This document shows, piece by piece, positions 2,367-57,659 of a stretch of 64,000 nucleotides of DNA; position 1 is the stretch's first letter; each line of letters begins with the position of its first letter. A program made the position numbers and the translations under genes. Source of the stretch: Bacillaceae bacterium IKA-2. GTDB lineage: Bacteria; Bacillota; Bacilli; Bacillales; Anaerobacillaceae. The notes beneath the pieces were generated by a model. The model searched no databases. It saw only the letters and a program-made list of their open reading frames with translations, and had not been told where the DNA came from. Location: positions 1,860,001-1,924,000 of the forward strand of contig CP134492.1 of assembly GCA_031761875.1 (NCBI GenBank), given 5' to 3'.

Positions 2367-4252
2367 GTGCGCCCAGCATGGGTGCAATCTCTAGGGTGAA
2401 AGTCCCGAACTGTGAAGGCAGAAGTAACAGTTAGCTTAACGCAAGGGTGTTCACGGTGACGTGAAATCTGAAGGAAGCGGGCGGCAAACTTCCGGTCTGA
2501 GGAACACGAACTTCATATAAGGCTAGGTATCACTGGGTGAGTTTGCTGAACAAAACAAAGCCCTTTCTGTCGAAGGTGACACAGAGTAAATGGAGCAGAT
2601 AGATGGAAGGAAAGATTGCATTCGTACCTGGGGAGATCTGATTGATAAGCCGAGTGATCTTGGCAACCTATTTAGTGATAAATAGCTGAACAGTCAGAAG
2701 TCAGCAGACGTCATAGTACTTCATTATCTTGAAATAATGAGGGAAGGACTGAACAATTAAGAAGAATGAGAGCTAGGCGTGCAGTTCTGCGTTGAAGCAG
2801 ACAATCCTAACGGACTTACTTGAAGAAGGAAATGGTGAATACATGGGGGACTTCAAGAGGGTGGAGCAGGAACTGAAACAAACAGACAAACTCATTCACG
2901 TGGAAAGGAAATGTCAAAATGTTAATGAAGCGAATTCTGTCACGAGAAAATCTTTTACTTGCTTTAAAGCGAGTTGAGAGCAATAAAGGAAGCTATGGCA
3001 TAGATGGAATGTCCGCAAAATCCCTGCGAAGATACCTCTATGAAAATTGGGAAACCCTTTGTTCTTCATTAAAAGAGGGAACCTATCAACCGCTACCCGT
3101 ACGACGAGTCGAAATCCCGAAACCGAACGGCGGAGTAAGGCTATTAGGCATCCCTACCGTAACAGACCGTTTCATTCAACAAGCAATCACTCAAATCTTA
3201 GTTCCAATCTTTGATCCAACCTTCTCAGAGCATAGTTACGGCTTCCGTCCAAAGAGACGTGGGCATGACGCGGTGAGAAAAGCAAAGGGATACCTCGAAG
3301 AGGGAAATAGATGGGTGATTGATATAGACTTAGAGAAATTCTTTGACAAAGTCAATCATGACAAGCTAATGGGGATATTAGTAAAACAAATAGACGATAG
3401 AATTCTACTGAAGTTAATCCGAAAATACCTACAAGCTGGAGTTATGATCAATGGTGTCGTCCACGAAACTGAAGAAGGAGCGCCTCAAGGTGGGCCATTA
3501 AGTCCACTTTTATCAAATGTCGTTCTAAATGAACTTGACATTGAGTTAGAAAAGAGAGGCCATAAGTTTGTTCGTTATGCCGATGACTGTAATATCTACG
3601 TGAAAACGAAGAAGGCGGGAAATCGAGTGATGAGCTCAGTGACGGGCTTCATCGAAACAAAGCTAAAGTTAAAAGTAAATAAGGATAAATCAGCAGTAGA
3701 TCGACCATGGAAGCGTAAGTTTCTGGGATTTAGTTTTACGATTAATAAAGCCCCAAAGATCCGCATAGCCAAAGAGAGTATTAAAAGGTTGAAAGCCAAA
3801 TTAAGAGGAATAACCTCACGATCTAAAGCAATTCCTATGGATCAAAGGATTAGGCAATTAAATCAATACTTAACAGGATGGTGTGGATACTATGCATTAG
3901 CTGATACACCTAGTAAATTCAAAGAATTTGATGAATGGATTAGAAGAAGACTTCGTATGTGTCAATGGAAACAATGGAAACTACCAAAAACAAAGGTGAG
4001 AAAACTTATTGGATTGGGTGTTCCAAAACAGAAGGCATATGAATGGGGAAATTCTCGTAAGAAATACTGGAGAATTTCTAATAGTCCAATCCTAAACAAA
4101 ACCCTCACTAACGCTTATTGGGCGCAACGAGGGTTGAAAAGTCTATATCAACGATATGAATATCTACGTCATACTTAATTGAACCGCCGTATACCGAACG
4201 GTACGTACGGTGGTGTGAGAGGTCGGGGGTTAATCACCCCCTCCTACTCGAT
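2367..4252 (+). mobile_element. Group IIC intron, complete
   Basis: The element starts with the group II consensus GTGCG at 2367 and ends with the domain V/VI region at about 4180-4252, finishing CTACTCGAT. Domain V carries the CGC catalytic triad context (GAACCGCCGTATACCGAACG), which is the group IIC form; other classes use AGC. Long stretches of domain I (for example GGTGAAAGTCCCGAACTGTG and GGAACACGAACTTCATATAA) match what I remember of the structurally solved Oceanobacillus iheyensis group IIC intron. It encodes a maturase without an endonuclease domain. The insertion site directly behind a terminator fits the known preference of this class. Both ends look intact, so it may be active. Confidence 0.92.
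2919..4178 (+). CDS. ltrA: Group II intron reverse transcriptase/maturase
   Basis: This 419-residue intron-encoded protein has the RT fingers-palm blocks in order (GIDGMSAKSLR, IPKPNGGVRLLGIPTVTDR, HSYGFRPKRRGHDAV, WVIDIDLEKFFDKVNHDKL, GAPQGGPLSPLLSNVVLNEL, and the catalytic FVRYADD), then KFLGF and a maturase X domain ending around residue 400. There is no HNH endonuclease domain, as usual in group IIC. It lies in domain IV of the intron. The start at 2919 follows GGAAAGG with suitable spacing; a second ATG two codons on is equally possible. The protein splices the intron RNA and copies it into new sites. No frameshift or missing catalytic residue is seen. Confidence 0.95.
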   Translation: MLMKRILSRENLLLALKRVESNKGSYGIDGMSAKSLRRYLYENWETLCSSLKEGTYQPLPVRRVEIPKPNGGVRLLGIPTVTDRFIQQAITQILVPIFDPTFSEHSYGFRPKRRGHDAVRKAKGYLEEGNRWVIDIDLEKFFDKVNHDKLMGILVKQIDDRILLKLIRKYLQAGVMINGVVHETEEGAPQGGPLSPLLSNVVLNELDIELEKRGHKFVRYADDCNIYVKTKKAGNRVMSSVTGFIETKLKLKVNKDKSAVDRPWKRKFLGFSFTINKAPKIRIAKESIKRLKAKLRGITSRSKAIPMDQRIRQLNQYLTGWCGYYALADTPSKFKEFDEWIRRRLRMCQWKQWKLPKTKVRKLIGLGVPKQKAYEWGNSRKKYWRISNSPILNKTLTNAYWAQRGLKSLYQRYEYLRHT

Positions 4253-20663: not shown

Positions 20664-20751
20664 GGTGCCTGACACCCGAGCGTGTAGATTGTGAATTTTT
20701 GGTGTTGGTACGACTGGATTGTTGTAAAAAATTCACAAGGTGTCTGACACC
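20664..20751. repeat. Palindromic dispersed repeat, copy 1
   Basis: The 88-bp element starts GGTGCCTGACACC and ends GGTGTCTGACACC; just inside, TTGTGAATTTT pairs with AAAAATTCACAA, so the whole can fold into one hairpin. Further copies lie at 42112-42199 and, interrupted by an IS110 element, at 54513-54520 joined to 56388-56470. Confidence 0.8.
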
Positions 20752-23910: not shown

Positions 23911-24052
23911 CTCTTATCAAGAGTGATTGAGGGGCCAGGCCCGATGACATCCAGCAACCACCAAGTAATTGGAAAGGTGCTACTTCCTGCAGAATGTTTC
24001 ATTCTGAAAGATAAGCTGAACTTTTTTAGCCTCTTTCATTTGAAAGAGGCTA
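23911..24052 (+). ncRNA. SAM-I (S-box) riboswitch with expression-platform terminator
   Basis: CTCTTATCAAGAGTGATTGA, GGGGCCAGGCCCGATGA-CA-TCC-AGCAACC, AAGGTGCTACTTCCTGCAG and GAAAGATAAG are the conserved S-box blocks in order; CTTATC and GATAAG form P1. A terminator (TAGCCTCTTTCA pairing with TGAAAGAGGCTA, 24027-24052) follows. High SAM would therefore stop transcription. No plus-strand gene with a known methionine role follows: the next gene, mtnU, is on the opposite strand and converges on this RNA. Confidence 0.9.
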
Positions 24053-33231: not shown

Positions 33232-33747
33232 TTTTGTCCCCTCCTAAAATACTTTTAGCATTTCAGGTAGCCCAGCCATCTGTATTGAAAATATAAACAA
33301 TCTTAGATCTGTGACTTTGCGTCCCTACTTTTCAATAGGTTTGCCTTTAACTGATAAATTTGTAAAAAATGATATCTTAGTCTCGATTGCTTTCATATGA
33401 CTTATGTAGTAATTACAAGTAGTATATCTGAAAAGTAAATTTATTTTTGTAGAAAAATGTCGTTTACAAAATATTCTAAAAAAATAAAAAAGTACAGTGA
33501 AAAGTTTTGATTAGCTTGAAAATAAAGTCATATATTGTAAAAAAATGGATTTTAAAGTAAAAAAACTTTTAATTAGATTAACTGAGCTAGTTTATTGAAA
33601 AATATTTTTTAAAAAAGATTGAAGAAAATGATAGATAACAACATAAAACCAACTAAAATGTCGATATTTTTATATAGAAAAAAGCAACCGTCCCCCCCTA
33701 AAAATAAAAGGGTAGAATAGTTGCTTTATTTTTAAACTATTTAATAA
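33232..33747. other. AT-rich gap upstream of sinI with a hairpin at 33679-33726
   Basis: No gene is visible. The sinI promoter must lie within the first 150 bases, but I could not choose boxes with confidence. AAAGCAAC pairs with GTTGCTTT (about 33682-33725) around a C7 and GGGT-containing loop; it is placed to terminate the truncated EAL gene on the minus strand. Confidence 0.5.
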
Positions 33748-42111: not shown

Positions 42112-42199
42112 GGTGCCTGACACCAAGGGTTATAGATTGTGAATAGACGATGTTGTTGTCATTGAATTCCTAGAGAAAATTCACATGATGTCTGGCACC
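42112..42199. repeat. Palindromic dispersed repeat, copy 2
   Basis: Begins GGTGCCTGACACC, ends GATGTCTGGCACC, with internal TTGTGAAT/ATTCACA inverted segments as in copy 1 at 20664. Confidence 0.8.
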
Positions 42200-53578: not shown

Positions 53579-54493
53579 ATGGGTAAGTTGTGTCATTTTA
53601 TTGGCATATTTTTTCTAGTTACAATATTGGCACTAATGTTTGGTTGCAGTAGTAGTGATAATTCTGATCAAGGTTTTAGGAATTCTAATGAAAAAGCTGA
53701 GGATGCTGCAACAGAATCAGAAATGGATTATGATGGTACGGATTCTGGTGAAAGTACTCAAATTGCACGGGATCTGGAGAAAAATTTTAATGACACTGAC
53801 CGAATGATCATTTACCATGCTAACCTTTCTATAGAAGTAAATGATTATCACAAAGTAGAAACGCAAATTCTGGAGAAAGTTTCGACCCTTGGTGGATATA
53901 TAGTAGAATCAACCATTTATGCTAGTGGAAAAGAACGCATAAATGGAAATTTAGTTGTGAAAGTTCCACAAGCTTCTTTTCACAGTTTTATTAATGACGT
54001 TGAATTAACTAGTATGAAAGTTTATGATCGCCATGTTAGCAGTAATGACGTAACAGAAGAATTCATTGATTTAGATTCACGCTTAAAGTCAAAACGAGTT
54101 GTCGAAGAAAGATTGCTTGGTTTTTTGGAACAAGCCAAACAAACTGAAGATCTCTTAAAAATCTCTAACGATTTAGCAAGAGTGCAAGAAGAAACCGAAC
54201 AATTACTTGGAAGAATGAATTATTTAAAAAATAACATCGCTTATTCAACAGTTTCACTTCAATTATCAGAGAAACTTGTAAATGTTCAATTTATGCAAGA
54301 TAAGGAAGCACTAAATACATGGCTAAAGTCAAAAAGTTTGTTTATGGATAGCTTAAATGGTGTTATCTCATTTTTCGCAAGTGTAATTGTGTTTTTTATT
54401 GGACGTAGCCCAATTTTATTGCCTATTGCTGTATTTGGAATAATTGCTATAATTTTTATAAGAAAACAGTATAAAAATCCTTCGCAAGAATGA
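53579..54493 (+). CDS. DUF4349 lipoprotein
   Basis: ATG 53579 follows AGAGGGTGG and yields 304 residues, with a lipoprotein signal (ILALMFGCSSSDNS; Cys about residue 23). After an acidic linker comes the DUF4349 domain: DRMIIYHANLSIEVNDYHKV, YIVESTIYASGKERINGNLV, VKVPQASFHSFINDV, then a coiled-coil region (LKSKRVVEERLLGFLEQAKQ) and a C-terminal membrane helix (about residues 260-290). It is anchored outside the membrane at both ends. Function of the family is not known. Confidence 0.85.
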   Translation: MGKLCHFIGIFFLVTILALMFGCSSSDNSDQGFRNSNEKAEDAATESEMDYDGTDSGESTQIARDLEKNFNDTDRMIIYHANLSIEVNDYHKVETQILEKVSTLGGYIVESTIYASGKERINGNLVVKVPQASFHSFINDVELTSMKVYDRHVSSNDVTEEFIDLDSRLKSKRVVEERLLGFLEQAKQTEDLLKISNDLARVQEETEQLLGRMNYLKNNIAYSTVSLQLSEKLVNVQFMQDKEALNTWLKSKSLFMDSLNGVISFFASVIVFFIGRSPILLPIAVFGIIAIIFIRKQYKNPSQE

Positions 54494-54512
54494 TGGTACC
54501 AGCGCAAAAATT

Positions 54513-54520
54513 GGTGCCTG
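54513..54520. repeat. Left fragment of palindromic repeat copy 3
   Basis: GGTGCCTG, the head of the dispersed repeat, cut here by the IS110 element. The rest of the copy is at 56388-56470. Confidence 0.8.
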
Positions 54521-54668
54521 GTGTATGAAATAATAAATGTCGAAAGATCTTTTAAAGAGGAGAAAGGAGAAAAAAGGACAAAAAAAGACCCCAGCGACTA
54601 CATGTAGTAAGATAAAACTACCTGACGGGAAGCCTCATCACAAACTACAAAATTGGAGCGTGAGTCAC

Positions 54669-56069
54669 ATGGGGCAAAAACATAAATCTAAGTCTAATAA
54701 TATTAGAGGAAGAAAAGGAAGTCAATTCCGATCTGAGCTAAGAGGTACAGATCTGGAGCGAGTATTAATTGTAGCCATTGATGCAGCGAAGTTTTATCAG
54801 AAAGCGATGGTGTGTAATTATTTTGGTGATGTACTAGTGAAACCTACATTTTTTGGTGTTAATAAAAAAGGTATTAGCCAACTTCACGAAAAGATCGAGC
54901 ATGCAAGCAAGGAAGTTGACGCAGAGCGGATTTTTGTTGGTATTGAGGCAACGGGGCATTACTATGAGGATATTGTGAGGGAATTAGGCGCTTTAGGATA
55001 CGGTGTAACGATTATCAATGCGGCAACGACACACGAAGAAAGATCAAGTTCGTTGAACTGGACTAAGACCGATGACCTCGATCTCAAGGCTATTGCCCAA
55101 GTCATTATTCAAAATAAAGGGACGGAGAGTAAGTTGCCGACGGGAACTCATCAAGAGTTAATAACGTTAACGAGAGCACGTAGGAGTGAAGTTAGAAAGA
55201 GATCCAGAGTCAAGGTAGAGATCCGGACGTTAATGGACAAAATTTGGAGAGAGTTCCAAGGGCACGTTATAGTAAATGGTCATACGCCAAATAAAGTAGA
55301 ATTATTTAGTGATTTTTGGGGCAAGTCCTCCCTCTTTTTTATGGAAAACTTCCCGCACCCAGAAGATCTTCTATCAATGAGTGAAGAAGATCTTCGAAAC
55401 CTATCGATTGAACATAATTTGAAGTTACGAGATTTAACCATTAAGAACCTGTTATATATCGCTAAGGAAAGCCTATGCAGGCCTAAAAGAGACGTTCGAG
55501 CTGAGCTACTATTACTAAAGCTAGCCTTACCAAACTTTCGAAATCTGAATGCCAATATAAAGGTGTTAGATCGAGAAATTGAGCGTATTTTATTAGAAAC
55601 AGATGGGCGTCTCCTTCTCAGTATTCCAGGAATTGGAGTGACAACGGCAGCGGAATTCTACTGTGAGGTAGGCGATGTACTGGCCTTTGAGCATGCAGGG
55701 CAGATTATCAAAAAAGCAGGAACCAATCCAATTGTCATTCAATCAGGGGGTCTAGAAGGGTTCTATGGAAAAATATCGAAACAAGGAAATAAGAATTTAC
55801 GCTATGTCGTCTATAATATTGGAAAGAGCTTAGCACAGCACAATAAAGATGTACGTCCGTATTACGAGAACCTCAGAGCGAAAGGCAAACATCAAAGAAA
55901 AGCGTACATTGCCTTAGGAAATAAGTTCATTCGAATAGCATTTGCGATGCTTACGAATCGAACCGTGTATCAGACAAATGATGAGTCTTACCAGTATTTA
56001 CGAATGATGAAAGCAAAGTTACGACATACAAAAATGTCGGAGTTTTCTCGAATCATTAGTGCAGCATAG
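54669..56069 (+). CDS. IS110-family DEDD transposase
   Basis: ATG 54669 has GGAG 10 bases upstream and gives 466 residues; an in-frame ATG at 54537 has no ribosome site and begins only 17 bases inside the element. The N-terminal RuvC-like DEDD domain shows Asp38 (VAIDAAKFY), Glu93 (GIEATGHYY) and the Asp135-Asp138 cluster (KTDDLDLKA). The C-terminal Transposase_20 domain has the helix-hairpin-helix LLLSIPGIGVTTAAEF and IQSGG with the likely nucleophilic serine. It is an RNA-guided recombinase by family knowledge. Confidence 0.92.
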   Translation: MGQKHKSKSNNIRGRKGSQFRSELRGTDLERVLIVAIDAAKFYQKAMVCNYFGDVLVKPTFFGVNKKGISQLHEKIEHASKEVDAERIFVGIEATGHYYEDIVRELGALGYGVTIINAATTHEERSSSLNWTKTDDLDLKAIAQVIIQNKGTESKLPTGTHQELITLTRARRSEVRKRSRVKVEIRTLMDKIWREFQGHVIVNGHTPNKVELFSDFWGKSSLFFMENFPHPEDLLSMSEEDLRNLSIEHNLKLRDLTIKNLLYIAKESLCRPKRDVRAELLLLKLALPNFRNLNANIKVLDREIERILLETDGRLLLSIPGIGVTTAAEFYCEVGDVLAFEHAGQIIKKAGTNPIVIQSGGLEGFYGKISKQGNKNLRYVVYNIGKSLAQHNKDVRPYYENLRAKGKHQRKAYIALGNKFIRIAFAMLTNRTVYQTNDESYQYLRMMKAKLRHTKMSEFSRIISAA

Positions 56070-56090
56070 TGAAATAACAGTAAAAATATG

Positions 56091-56260
56091 AGTCTCCTCC
56101 TCTGGGACTGAGGGAAAATCGATTCGGTGCCGGAGGCTGTAGACCTCGAGTGTCAGCATGATTTACCTCGTCCTACAAATACGAATTGTACGTTAAGATA
56201 AAATCCTGAACTAACCAGGTTGTATCCCTGTAGTATGAAAAACGAGGTTAAGGTTCTTTT
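56091..56260 (+). ncRNA. Candidate IS110 bridge RNA
   Basis: The non-coding right end folds into two loops. Target loop: GGTGCC (56126-56131) equals the left half of the target; GTGTCAG (56150-56156) is the complement of CTGACAC, the right half including the core; the two flank a small hairpin (GAGG/CCTC, 56133-56147), and AAATC/GATTT can close the loop outside. Donor loop: closed by ACCTCGT/ACGAGGT (56165-56171, 56242-56248); TTGTACGTT (56186-56194) matches the element right end TAGTACGCT at 7 of 9, and ACCAG (56214-56218) is the complement of CTGGT at the left end. Order (target loop, then donor loop) is as in IS621. Ends of the RNA are estimates. Confidence 0.65.
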
Positions 56261-56387
56261 CAAGTCCGAGAGGAGAAAGGCTCAATAATAAGCTTTCTGT
56301 CAGTTGCTTATTGGATTTTTTTGTATATTATTACATGAGTTTATTAAGTTTGTTTAATTTTTAGAAAAAACTAATTGACATAGTACG

Positions 56388-56470
56388 CTGACACCAATCA
56401 GTCGATATTGTGAATGGTCGATGTTGAATCCATCATATTCTTGAAGGAAATTCACAAGATGTCTGGCACC
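56388..56470. repeat. Right fragment of palindromic repeat copy 3
   Basis: CTGACACC onward, with ATTGTGAAT/ATTCACAA internal inverted segments and end GATGTCTGGCACC; continues the head at 54513-54520. Confidence 0.8.
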
Positions 56471-56602
56471 ATAAAATAGTCCAGGGAGAAAAGTTTGATC
56501 TCCACTGGATTTTTTTAATTATATAACTATTGATCTAGGAAGTTAAAATTGGGCCTGAAAGATTTATGCTATCAAAAAACATAATATATTTTCTTAAAAA
56601 AG

Positions 56603-56667: not shown

Positions 56668-57213
56668 ATTAACGATGAGGCTTTACTAAAACAAGTGCGA
56701 CGAGGAAATGATCATGCCTTTCGTTTGTTCATTGAGAAGTATCGAAATGATATTTATAAAGTGGCATACTCAGTGTTGCGAAATGAAAAAGATGCAGAAG
56801 ATGCAGCTCAGGACATCTTTTTGAAGATTTATTACTCTCTCCCTAAGTATGAAGGTAAGGGTTTAAAGACGTGGATGACCCGGATTGCTGTTAATCATTC
56901 TATTGATATGAAAAGAAAAAAAGAGCGCTGGCGAGAGGATGTCACAGAAGATCTGAACTTGCAATTTAAAACGGCGAGTACAGATAGTGTCGAGGGAGAG
57001 CTTTTAAAGAAAGAGATGAAAAGTCAGGTTTTAAATAGGGTCAATGAGTTACCTAAGAATTACCGTGATGTTGTCTATGGTTATTACATACAAGAAAAAA
57101 GCTCACAACAATTAGCAATAGAGTTGGATGTAAAAGAAAAAACAATCGTAGTGAAGTTGCACCGTGCTAGAAATTGGATGAGGAAACGTTGGAAGGAGGA
57201 GGATTTTGAATGA
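56668..57213 (+). CDS. ECF-type RNA polymerase sigma factor
   Basis: The coding sense extends upstream of GTG 56695 through NDEALLKQVRRGNDHAF, the usual N-terminus of this family, to an ATT at 56668 that lies about 5 bases after GGGGGGGGAG. No ATG, GTG or TTG is available in that part, so an ATT start is proposed (181 residues). Region 2 contains DAEDAAQDIFLKIYYSL and KTWMTRIAVNHSIDMKR; region 4 contains LPKNYRDVVYGYYIQEKSSQ and LHRARNWMRKRW. The gene overlaps its anti-sigma factor gene by 4 bases (ATGA). Confidence 0.8.
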   Translation: MNDEALLKQVRRGNDHAFRLFIEKYRNDIYKVAYSVLRNEKDAEDAAQDIFLKIYYSLPKYEGKGLKTWMTRIAVNHSIDMKRKKERWREDVTEDLNLQFKTASTDSVEGELLKKEMKSQVLNRVNELPKNYRDVVYGYYIQEKSSQQLAIELDVKEKTIVVKLHRARNWMRKRWKEEDFE

Positions 57214-57659
57214 AGCATATTTCAAATGAAGAGTGGACGCGATATGTAAAAGGGCAACTACCAGAAGAACTTCGAGACAGCTATGAGACTCATTTATACG
57301 AATGTGACGCTTGTATGGATTCATATCTTCAAGCAATAGAAACTTCTGAATCCTCGATACCTGATTTAAATGAGGGCAGCCTATTGACAGAGTCAATTAT
57401 GAATCGAATTGGTGGTACCGATCTTAAAAAGGGATTAACTAGCCAACGCCCACTTTATCAACATACGTTGTTCCATTATCTAATTGCTGCTGCTATGACG
57501 ATTGTTCTAATGTTTTCAGGAATGTTTCAGTCACTTACCAATTATCTAGATGATGTTCAAAATACAACCTTGTCACAACAAACTCCTTCCATTACTGAAA
57601 AAATATTAGATACTACATTTACGCGAATAAATGAAGAAGAACAAGGAGGCGATCAATAA
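57210..57659 (+). CDS. Anti-sigma factor with zinc-finger (ZAS-type) domain and one TM
   Basis: The 149-residue protein has an N-terminal HxxxCxxC motif (HLYECDACMDSY, about residues 28-39), the zinc-associated anti-sigma signature, then one membrane helix (HYLIAAAMTIVLMFSGMF, about residues 89-106) and a short outer tail. It should hold the upstream sigma factor at the membrane until a signal arrives. AAGGAGGAGG precedes the ATG, which overlaps the sigma stop; the next gene overlaps its own stop by one base, so the operon is tightly coupled. Confidence 0.85.
   Translation: MKHISNEEWTRYVKGQLPEELRDSYETHLYECDACMDSYLQAIETSESSIPDLNEGSLLTESIMNRIGGTDLKKGLTSQRPLYQHTLFHYLIAAAMTIVLMFSGMFQSLTNYLDDVQNTTLSQQTPSITEKILDTTFTRINEEEQGGDQ

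Follow-up and report, generated by a model that had tools for sequence, protein, structure and literature searches.

While examining the window, by which we mean the whole stretch of 64,000 nucleotides that was analysed (coordinates are on its + strand unless marked otherwise), we saw that positions 54520-56389 hold a complete IS110-family insertion sequence of 1,870 bp, delimited by joining its flanks and by the same ends in four copies in the genome. To its left stand the left target half and a CT core, GGTGC-CT (GGTGCCT, 54513-54519); the element closes with its right end TTGACATAGTACGCT (56375-56389), the CT of which reads on into the right target half as CT-GACACC (56388-56395, with GACACC at 56390-56395). 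When the flanks were joined without 54520-56389 they rebuilt GGTGCCTGACACC and, with it, a dispersed-repeat copy that is typical in other respects, as the original prediction had claimed for the head of this repeat. The remainder of the interrupted copy follows at 56390-56470, with an inner inverted repeat at 56405-56415/56450-56460 and the partner palindrome GATGTCTGGCACC at 56458-56470. Intact copies lie at 20664-20751 (GGTGCCTGACACC ... GGTGTCTGACACC) and 42112-42199 (GGTGCCTGACACC ... GATGTCTGGCACC), and there is a copy of GGTGCCTGACACC with one mismatch at 20739; the window has three matches with at most one mismatch against 0.01 expected. The repeat copies of the window enclose an inverted repeat of the type TTGTGAAT/ATTCACA. 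All coordinates first proposed for the element, its flanks, the guides and the ACCTCGT/ACGAGGT stem agreed on re-checking.

The recombinase gene of the element, tnp, is predicted to span 54669-56069 and to encode a 466-residue DEDD/RuvC recombinase with a Transposase_20 domain. The longest open reading frame begins at 54537 (54537-56069), a start we rejected as an over-call; 54669 is more likely because the same frame in Evansella clarkii has a stop with only two sense codons between it and the ATG equivalent to 54669. The product matched PF01548 and PF02371 (DEDD_Tnp_IS110, Transposase_20) in Pfam and the NCBIfam model NF033542, "IS110 family RNA-guided transposase" (186.5 bits vs a cut-off of 140), and its sequence matches in the PDB were to IS621 and ISCro4, over the C-terminal part only. 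An AlphaFold model built from nine aligned proteins (mean pLDDT 75.6, pTM 0.64) found chains of IS621 or ISCro4 as its 11 best Foldseek matches in the PDB (E-values 1.2e-13 to 4.8e-12; TM scores by target 0.66-0.70). Residues D38, E93, D135, D138, S359 and G360 are invariant in the nine proteins, and the aligned recombinases have the motif G--P----SG without the L. Membership in the IS110 family is well supported.

The left end of the window element has its own version of a CCCC...GGGG inverted repeat (54585-54690), as does that of E. clarkii. In seven of the 13 left ends folded (L010, L037-L041 and L089) a long inverted repeat, for example CCACCGTTTTCAT ... ATGAAAACGATGG, was predicted to pair over the ribosome site and start codon; it was absent from the best fold of L011, L035 and L049. 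Such a hairpin may block translation from outside transcripts.

Downstream of tnp, the non-coding right end holds a predicted bridge RNA, its region including an outer stem being 56089-56285 (placed by fold and by covariation over 18 sequences) and its core, with target and donor loops, 56110-56247 (a covariance-model match of 126.3 bits, the window being among the 12 model sequences). The target loop carries the left guide GGTGCC (56126-56131), which equals the top strand and would pair with the bottom strand, an apical hairpin GGAGG...ACCTC (56132-56147, with five of six pairs invariant in the 18 sequences) and the right guide GTGTCAG (56150-56156), the complement of CTGACAC; directly after GGTGCC the RNA has a G, in contrast to the T of the core. 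A donor stem-loop closed by ACCTCGT/ACGAGGT (56165-56248) carries the left donor guide TTGTACGTT (56186-56194; the element right end is TAGTACGCT) and the right donor guide ACCAG (56214-56218), the complement of CTGGT at the putative circle junction. The right end has the two guide-bearing loops, one for target and one for donor, at the positions and with the matches that had been claimed.

Other features of the window include group II intron signatures with three Rfam matches (2450-4252, +), a SAM riboswitch (23911-24017, +) and a c-di-GMP-I-GGC riboswitch (33262-33354, -), the latter two by Rfam. Downstream of the repeat there are two overlapping open reading frames (56695-57659, +), which may encode an ECF sigma factor and its anti-sigma partner.

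Copies, relatives and the interrupted repeat

The host genome (4.42 Mb, one contig) contains four near-identical copies of the transposase, all of them in GGTG(C/T)-CT-GACAC: two in GGTGC-CT-GACACC, one in GGTGT-CT-GACACC and one in GGTGC-CT-GACACT. Copies sharing one guide sequence therefore all occupy the matching site, none an unrelated one. The exceptions to the main site are a copy in GGTGTCTGACACC and one in GGTGCCTGACACT, inside a different palindrome; the GGTGC-CT-GACACT copy sits inside CATTCGGTGCCTGACACTGAATG. The three copies in the paired repeat (those in GGTGC-CT-GACACC and GGTGT-CT-GACACC) have one common orientation, for which the sequence suggests a reason: the 13-bp palindrome has a central T and so offers the CT core on one strand only. 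Insertion occurred without duplication at a shared core, CT being present at both ends of these copies and of relatives. The genome has 91 GGTGYCTGACACC sites and 0 of a reversed control pattern, many of the 91 being paired roughly 50-130 bp apart. The palindrome that serves as target belongs to a dispersed REP-like repeat.

Searches for relatives gave matches with E-values of 1e-80 or less in 11 genomes among 397 sampled within the order, and with 1e-60 or less in five among 398 sampled within the class; both counts include the host genome. No match was found in plasmids at 1e-40; at 1e-5 there were at least 5000 matching plasmid records, all below 60% identity among those listed (25.6-28.7% in 20 of them). 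An alignment-based search of viral contigs found no match. The host genome also has a second IS110-family element, matched five times at 25% identity (L005-L009; an internal stop interrupts one match). Its 3' non-coding region is long, and in four left flanks examined the left end reads ...CAGTTAGC or ...CCGTTAGC. We considered it as a part of the window lineage and rejected it, with its other flanks (four copies) and no match to the covariance model (two loci and the rest of the genome).

Several relatives were unusual. On its left flank, locus L091 in genome G626 directly abuts the right end TTTGACATAGTACGCT of another element, with one CT common to both and with the same letters as the end of the window element, a junction that possibly arose by insertion at an element end or by recombination between two elements. 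In L093 of the same genome, two GGTACCTGTGCAC/T-type repeats lie downstream of the RNA where the right end was expected and the usual end was not found; a repeat of this type may have entered or replaced it. L130 (G395:C1:940166) is a second G395 copy with intact guide loops and tnp in two frames, and L154 (G268:C1:1500211) is a left-truncated relic that keeps its right end and most of the bridge RNA and in which no tnp was found.

These decayed relatives bear on whether the window element could itself be a dead copy, with guides that are ancestral and out of use. Activity of the element is a prediction, and besides the split tnp of L130 and the relic L154, internal stops occur in L036, L089 and L092. 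Against this, the four copies of the host genome have open frames, are 100% identical after rounding (one scores slightly lower) and lie in four different flanks, and so spread recently; we consider a dead copy unlikely.

Structure and placement of the RNA

Taken as a single sequence, 56089-56290 was predicted to fold only modestly better than its shuffled versions (-59.9 kcal/mol, z -2.54, with three of 200 shuffles as good). The alignment of 18 sequences supported the outer stem, the base of the target loop, the apical hairpin and the donor stem: measured against shuffles that keep the relatedness among the 18 sequences, 89.0% of 774 cells were paired (shuffle mean 81.8), 21 of 43 pairs had changes on both sides (shuffle mean 11.6, 0 of 500 as high), there were 60 double-change cells (shuffle mean 19.4) and 42 further pair types (shuffle mean 36.4, 4 of 500 as high). 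Among slid versions of the structure, the best reached 12 pairs and 35 cells, vs 21 and 60 in place. Pairs of the outer stem form in only 74-77% of cells, a shortfall that probably comes partly from alignment; this stem was read from family G243, replacing a small 3' hairpin given by RNAalifold, and the structure was to that extent chosen by eye. In several relatives the individual minimum-energy fold has a target loop unlike that of the consensus.

A covariance model of the inner part of the RNA, built from 12 families including that of the window, matched the right end (56110-56247), where the original prediction had placed the RNA, rather than the left. In the host genome it found four RNAs, one per tnp copy, with 150 of 2057 first-look candidates scored, and it also recognized the RNA at loci from six families that had not gone into it (L036, L038, L040, L090, L092 and L093). 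Six more distant IS110 loci (L005, L006, L012, L013, L020 and L028) gave no match. Rfam at gathering scores had nothing within the element, and at E-values up to 5 on 54400-56500 it gave three matches, all far below their cut-offs.

Three classes of donor guides were seen: GTACG with (A/G)CCAG, for element ends GTACG-CT-GGT; ATACG with (A/G)CTAG, for ATACG-CT-AGT; and AAACG with AATAG, for AAACG-CT-ATT (one end being AAACG-TT). With wobble pairs counted, left and right donor guides agree with their element ends in 17 of 18 families; in the 18th the right end was not delimitable. This co-variation supports the proposed match of TTGTACGTT and ACCAG to the ends of the window element. The matches are short and the three classes follow clades, so they represent few independent events.

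The position of this RNA makes the placement of the element within the family mixed, the RNA lying where it does in the IS1111 group, while guide order, protein length, motif and the short end repeat point to the IS110 group. An IS110-group element has its RNA in the left (5') end, and here it is 3' of tnp; such an element also has the bottom-strand guide 5' of the top-strand guide, and that is the order seen here (GGTGCC, then GTGTCAG). It could be argued from the 3' RNA that the element is instead IS1111-type, as a right-end RNA with a long right end and a short left end is what PMC11187229 and PMC11208160 describe for IS1111, and exact 7-bp end repeats were found in five of 13 families (inside the terminal 30 bp on both sides, and not all at matching places), with the result that the boundary between the two groups is not sharp. 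We nevertheless find this assignment quite improbable given the IS110 guide order, a recombinase of 466 residues rather than 330-350, its G--P----SG motif without the L, and window ends whose shared repeat is just 4 bp long near the tips and 5 bp long within 30 bp, where IS1111 elements have a subterminal inverted repeat of 7-17 bp. With IS110 guide order and IS1111 RNA position, the element would be a candidate for an intermediate stage in the suggested relocation of the RNA from one element end to the other.

Guides, target sites and neighbouring Y1 genes

The original prediction held that the repeat is the target matched by the RNA guides, and co-variation of guides and sites across 16 families supports it. 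These were 16 of 19 families (40 loci), with 36 sites. The rows dropped were G626a, whose left flank is the end of another element, G626b, whose right end was not found, G641, which had no guide pattern (its RNA was later found in L092), and the copy L097, whose left end was unmatched. For G395, G586 and G720 the ends were set by eye, and L033 (E. clarkii) has Ns in the left flank beyond the six bases scored. Over the five bases beyond the core, 79 of 80 right-guide positions agreed with their own site (permutation mean 54.5), and over six bases 75.7 of 96 left-guide positions did (permutation mean 57.2); 0 of 100,000 permutations reached the observed value for either, a tail probability that is inexact since permutations take families as exchangeable. 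Left guides that fitted less well were those of G268c (3/6), G128 (3.3/6) and G268a (3.5/6).

The right guide GTGTCAG of the window is shared by G004, with sites CTGACAC. E. clarkii, G002, G023, G243 and G248 have GTGACAG and sites CTGTCAC; G268b, G268c, G128, G395 and G174 have GGGACAG and sites CTGTCCC; G172 has GGGTCAG and a CTGACCC site; G586 has GACACAG and CTGTGTC; G268a has CGTTTAG and CTAAACG; and G720 has TGCACAG with a CTGTGCG site, matching at four of five bases with one mismatch. In the closest named relative, E. clarkii (77% amino acid identity), one guide base has changed and the site has changed to match. A relative at 55% identity with the guides CAGTTTCC/CGTTTAG sits in AATTTC-CT-AAACG and AGTTT-CT-AAACG. 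On sequence grounds these G268a elements (L034 and L042, both in genome G268) are a naturally redirected branch. Their sites are unlike the REP class; AAAGTTAGTAGTTATCCACAA precedes the element in both, and a hairpin-like sequence follows it.

As read from sequence, this co-change of guide and site is strong evidence that the RNA chooses the site. That the recombinase instead reads the palindromic repeat through protein-DNA contacts, the RNA matches being a by-product of the palindrome or of a captured target, is very improbable: a near-palindromic target does make short matches easier to find and several families have similar sites, but guide and site differ in step when the window is compared with its closest relative, and again over 16 families, the guides hold fixed places in a conserved fold 1.6 kb away from the left flank, and G268a pairs AAACG-type sites with matching guides. 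We therefore favor, at a probability of about 93%, the reading that the window element is an autonomous IS110-family element guided by a bridge RNA (seekRNA). Searches limited to open-access papers showed none on guide/site co-variation for this repeat class.

In the host genome, one of seven Y1_Tnp genes (the open reading frame in L086) has four of the sites within about 210 bp, two upstream and two downstream. In G002, G023, G243, G248 and E. clarkii, where the site is GTGCCTGTCAC, the motif occurs 18-69 times vs 0-2 for the control, and one Y1 gene in each has the motif within 350 bp on one or both sides (12 of 13 Y1 matches examined in these five genomes). The flank test covered 37 Y1 loci, all seven of the host genome and 30 of 44 other matches; an open reading frame was read in 29 and eight were dropped. 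As a raw count, a genome's own site motif lay within about 1.5 kb of a Y1 gene in nine of 13 genomes (the host genome, G002, G004, G023, G243, G248, G268, G395 and E. clarkii), and none lay near Y1 in the loci examined of G172, G128, G174 and G626. The G004 match, beside a gene of another Y1 cluster, may be due to chance, and clustering of mobile DNA may in part explain the proximity, because 12 of the 18 sites in G002 concentrate on one contig. The arrangement of repeat and Y1 gene resembles REP/RAYT systems (PMC3733652), and Y1 genes flanked by other repeats are described in the same source.

Proposed mechanism and comparison with known systems

From the observed sequence, fold, co-variation and site occupancy we infer a course in which the RNA would be expressed from the 3' non-coding end, its outer stem enclosing the two loops. 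The element would excise as a circle with the junction TAGTACG-CT-GGTGTATG, by analogy with IS621 and ISEc11/ISEc21 (PMC11208160, PMC11187229); this junction puts TTGACA and AAATAAT 17 bp apart, by eye a possible junction promoter. In the target loop GGTGCC would pair with the bottom strand and GTGTCAG with the top strand of the repeat site, the joined ends of the element, TAGTACG-CT-GGTGT, would be bound by TTGTACGTT and ACCAG of the donor loop through pairing, and the RNA would so bring circle and repeat together. The recombinase, through its DEDD RuvC and serine domains, would then catalyze strand exchange at the shared CT, inserting the circular element without duplication. The repeat is presumably spread by the Y1 enzyme, and the element would use a repeat associated with another transposase as a multi-copy landing site.

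The lineage is present in at least one order and one further family of the class. We see an even chance that its guide loop followed the REP-like repeats of its hosts as palindromes near Y1 genes diversified, and it could go either way whether, on the same reading, guides were rewritten to match the GTCAC, GACAC, GTCCC and GACCC types, with one branch moving to an unrelated site. RNA-guided insertion linked to repeats of a second transposase is a possible route to many tolerable sites. The guide/site pairs at 77%, 55% and 43-48% protein identity are ready-made test pairs for reprogramming rules, and they concern an RNA-guided recombinase that is larger and whose RNA is placed differently. The disagreement between RNA location and guide order bears on the origin of the IS110 and IS1111 groups.

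The element is like IS621 in its DEDD and serine recombinase fold, in target and donor loops with the same order of left and right guides, and in insertion into REP palindromes (PMC11208160); unlike IS621, with its RNA in the left end and 328 residues, it has its RNA 3' of tnp, both loops inside one outer stem, and a recombinase of about 466 residues. It shares an RNA downstream of tnp and a long right end with IS1111-type elements that have a seekRNA (ISEc11, ISPa11, ISKpn4), although these are set apart by the description in PMC11187229, with reversed guide order, a longer subterminal inverted repeat and a smaller transposase. Insertion of IS110 elements into REP palindromes has long been known (PMC1525189, and for IS621 PMC11208160), and ISPpu9, ISPpu10 and ISPa11 (PMC1525189) resemble the window element in this; their targets are Pseudomonas REPs and not of the GGTGYCWGRCACC class, and the abstract of PMC1525189 has no RNA guide. 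Elements with an IS110-type transposase and a downstream, 3' non-coding region were already noted in PMC11187229 (green group of Fig. 1b), and as that arrangement is the one found here, the window element possibly belongs, by description, to the same subgroup.
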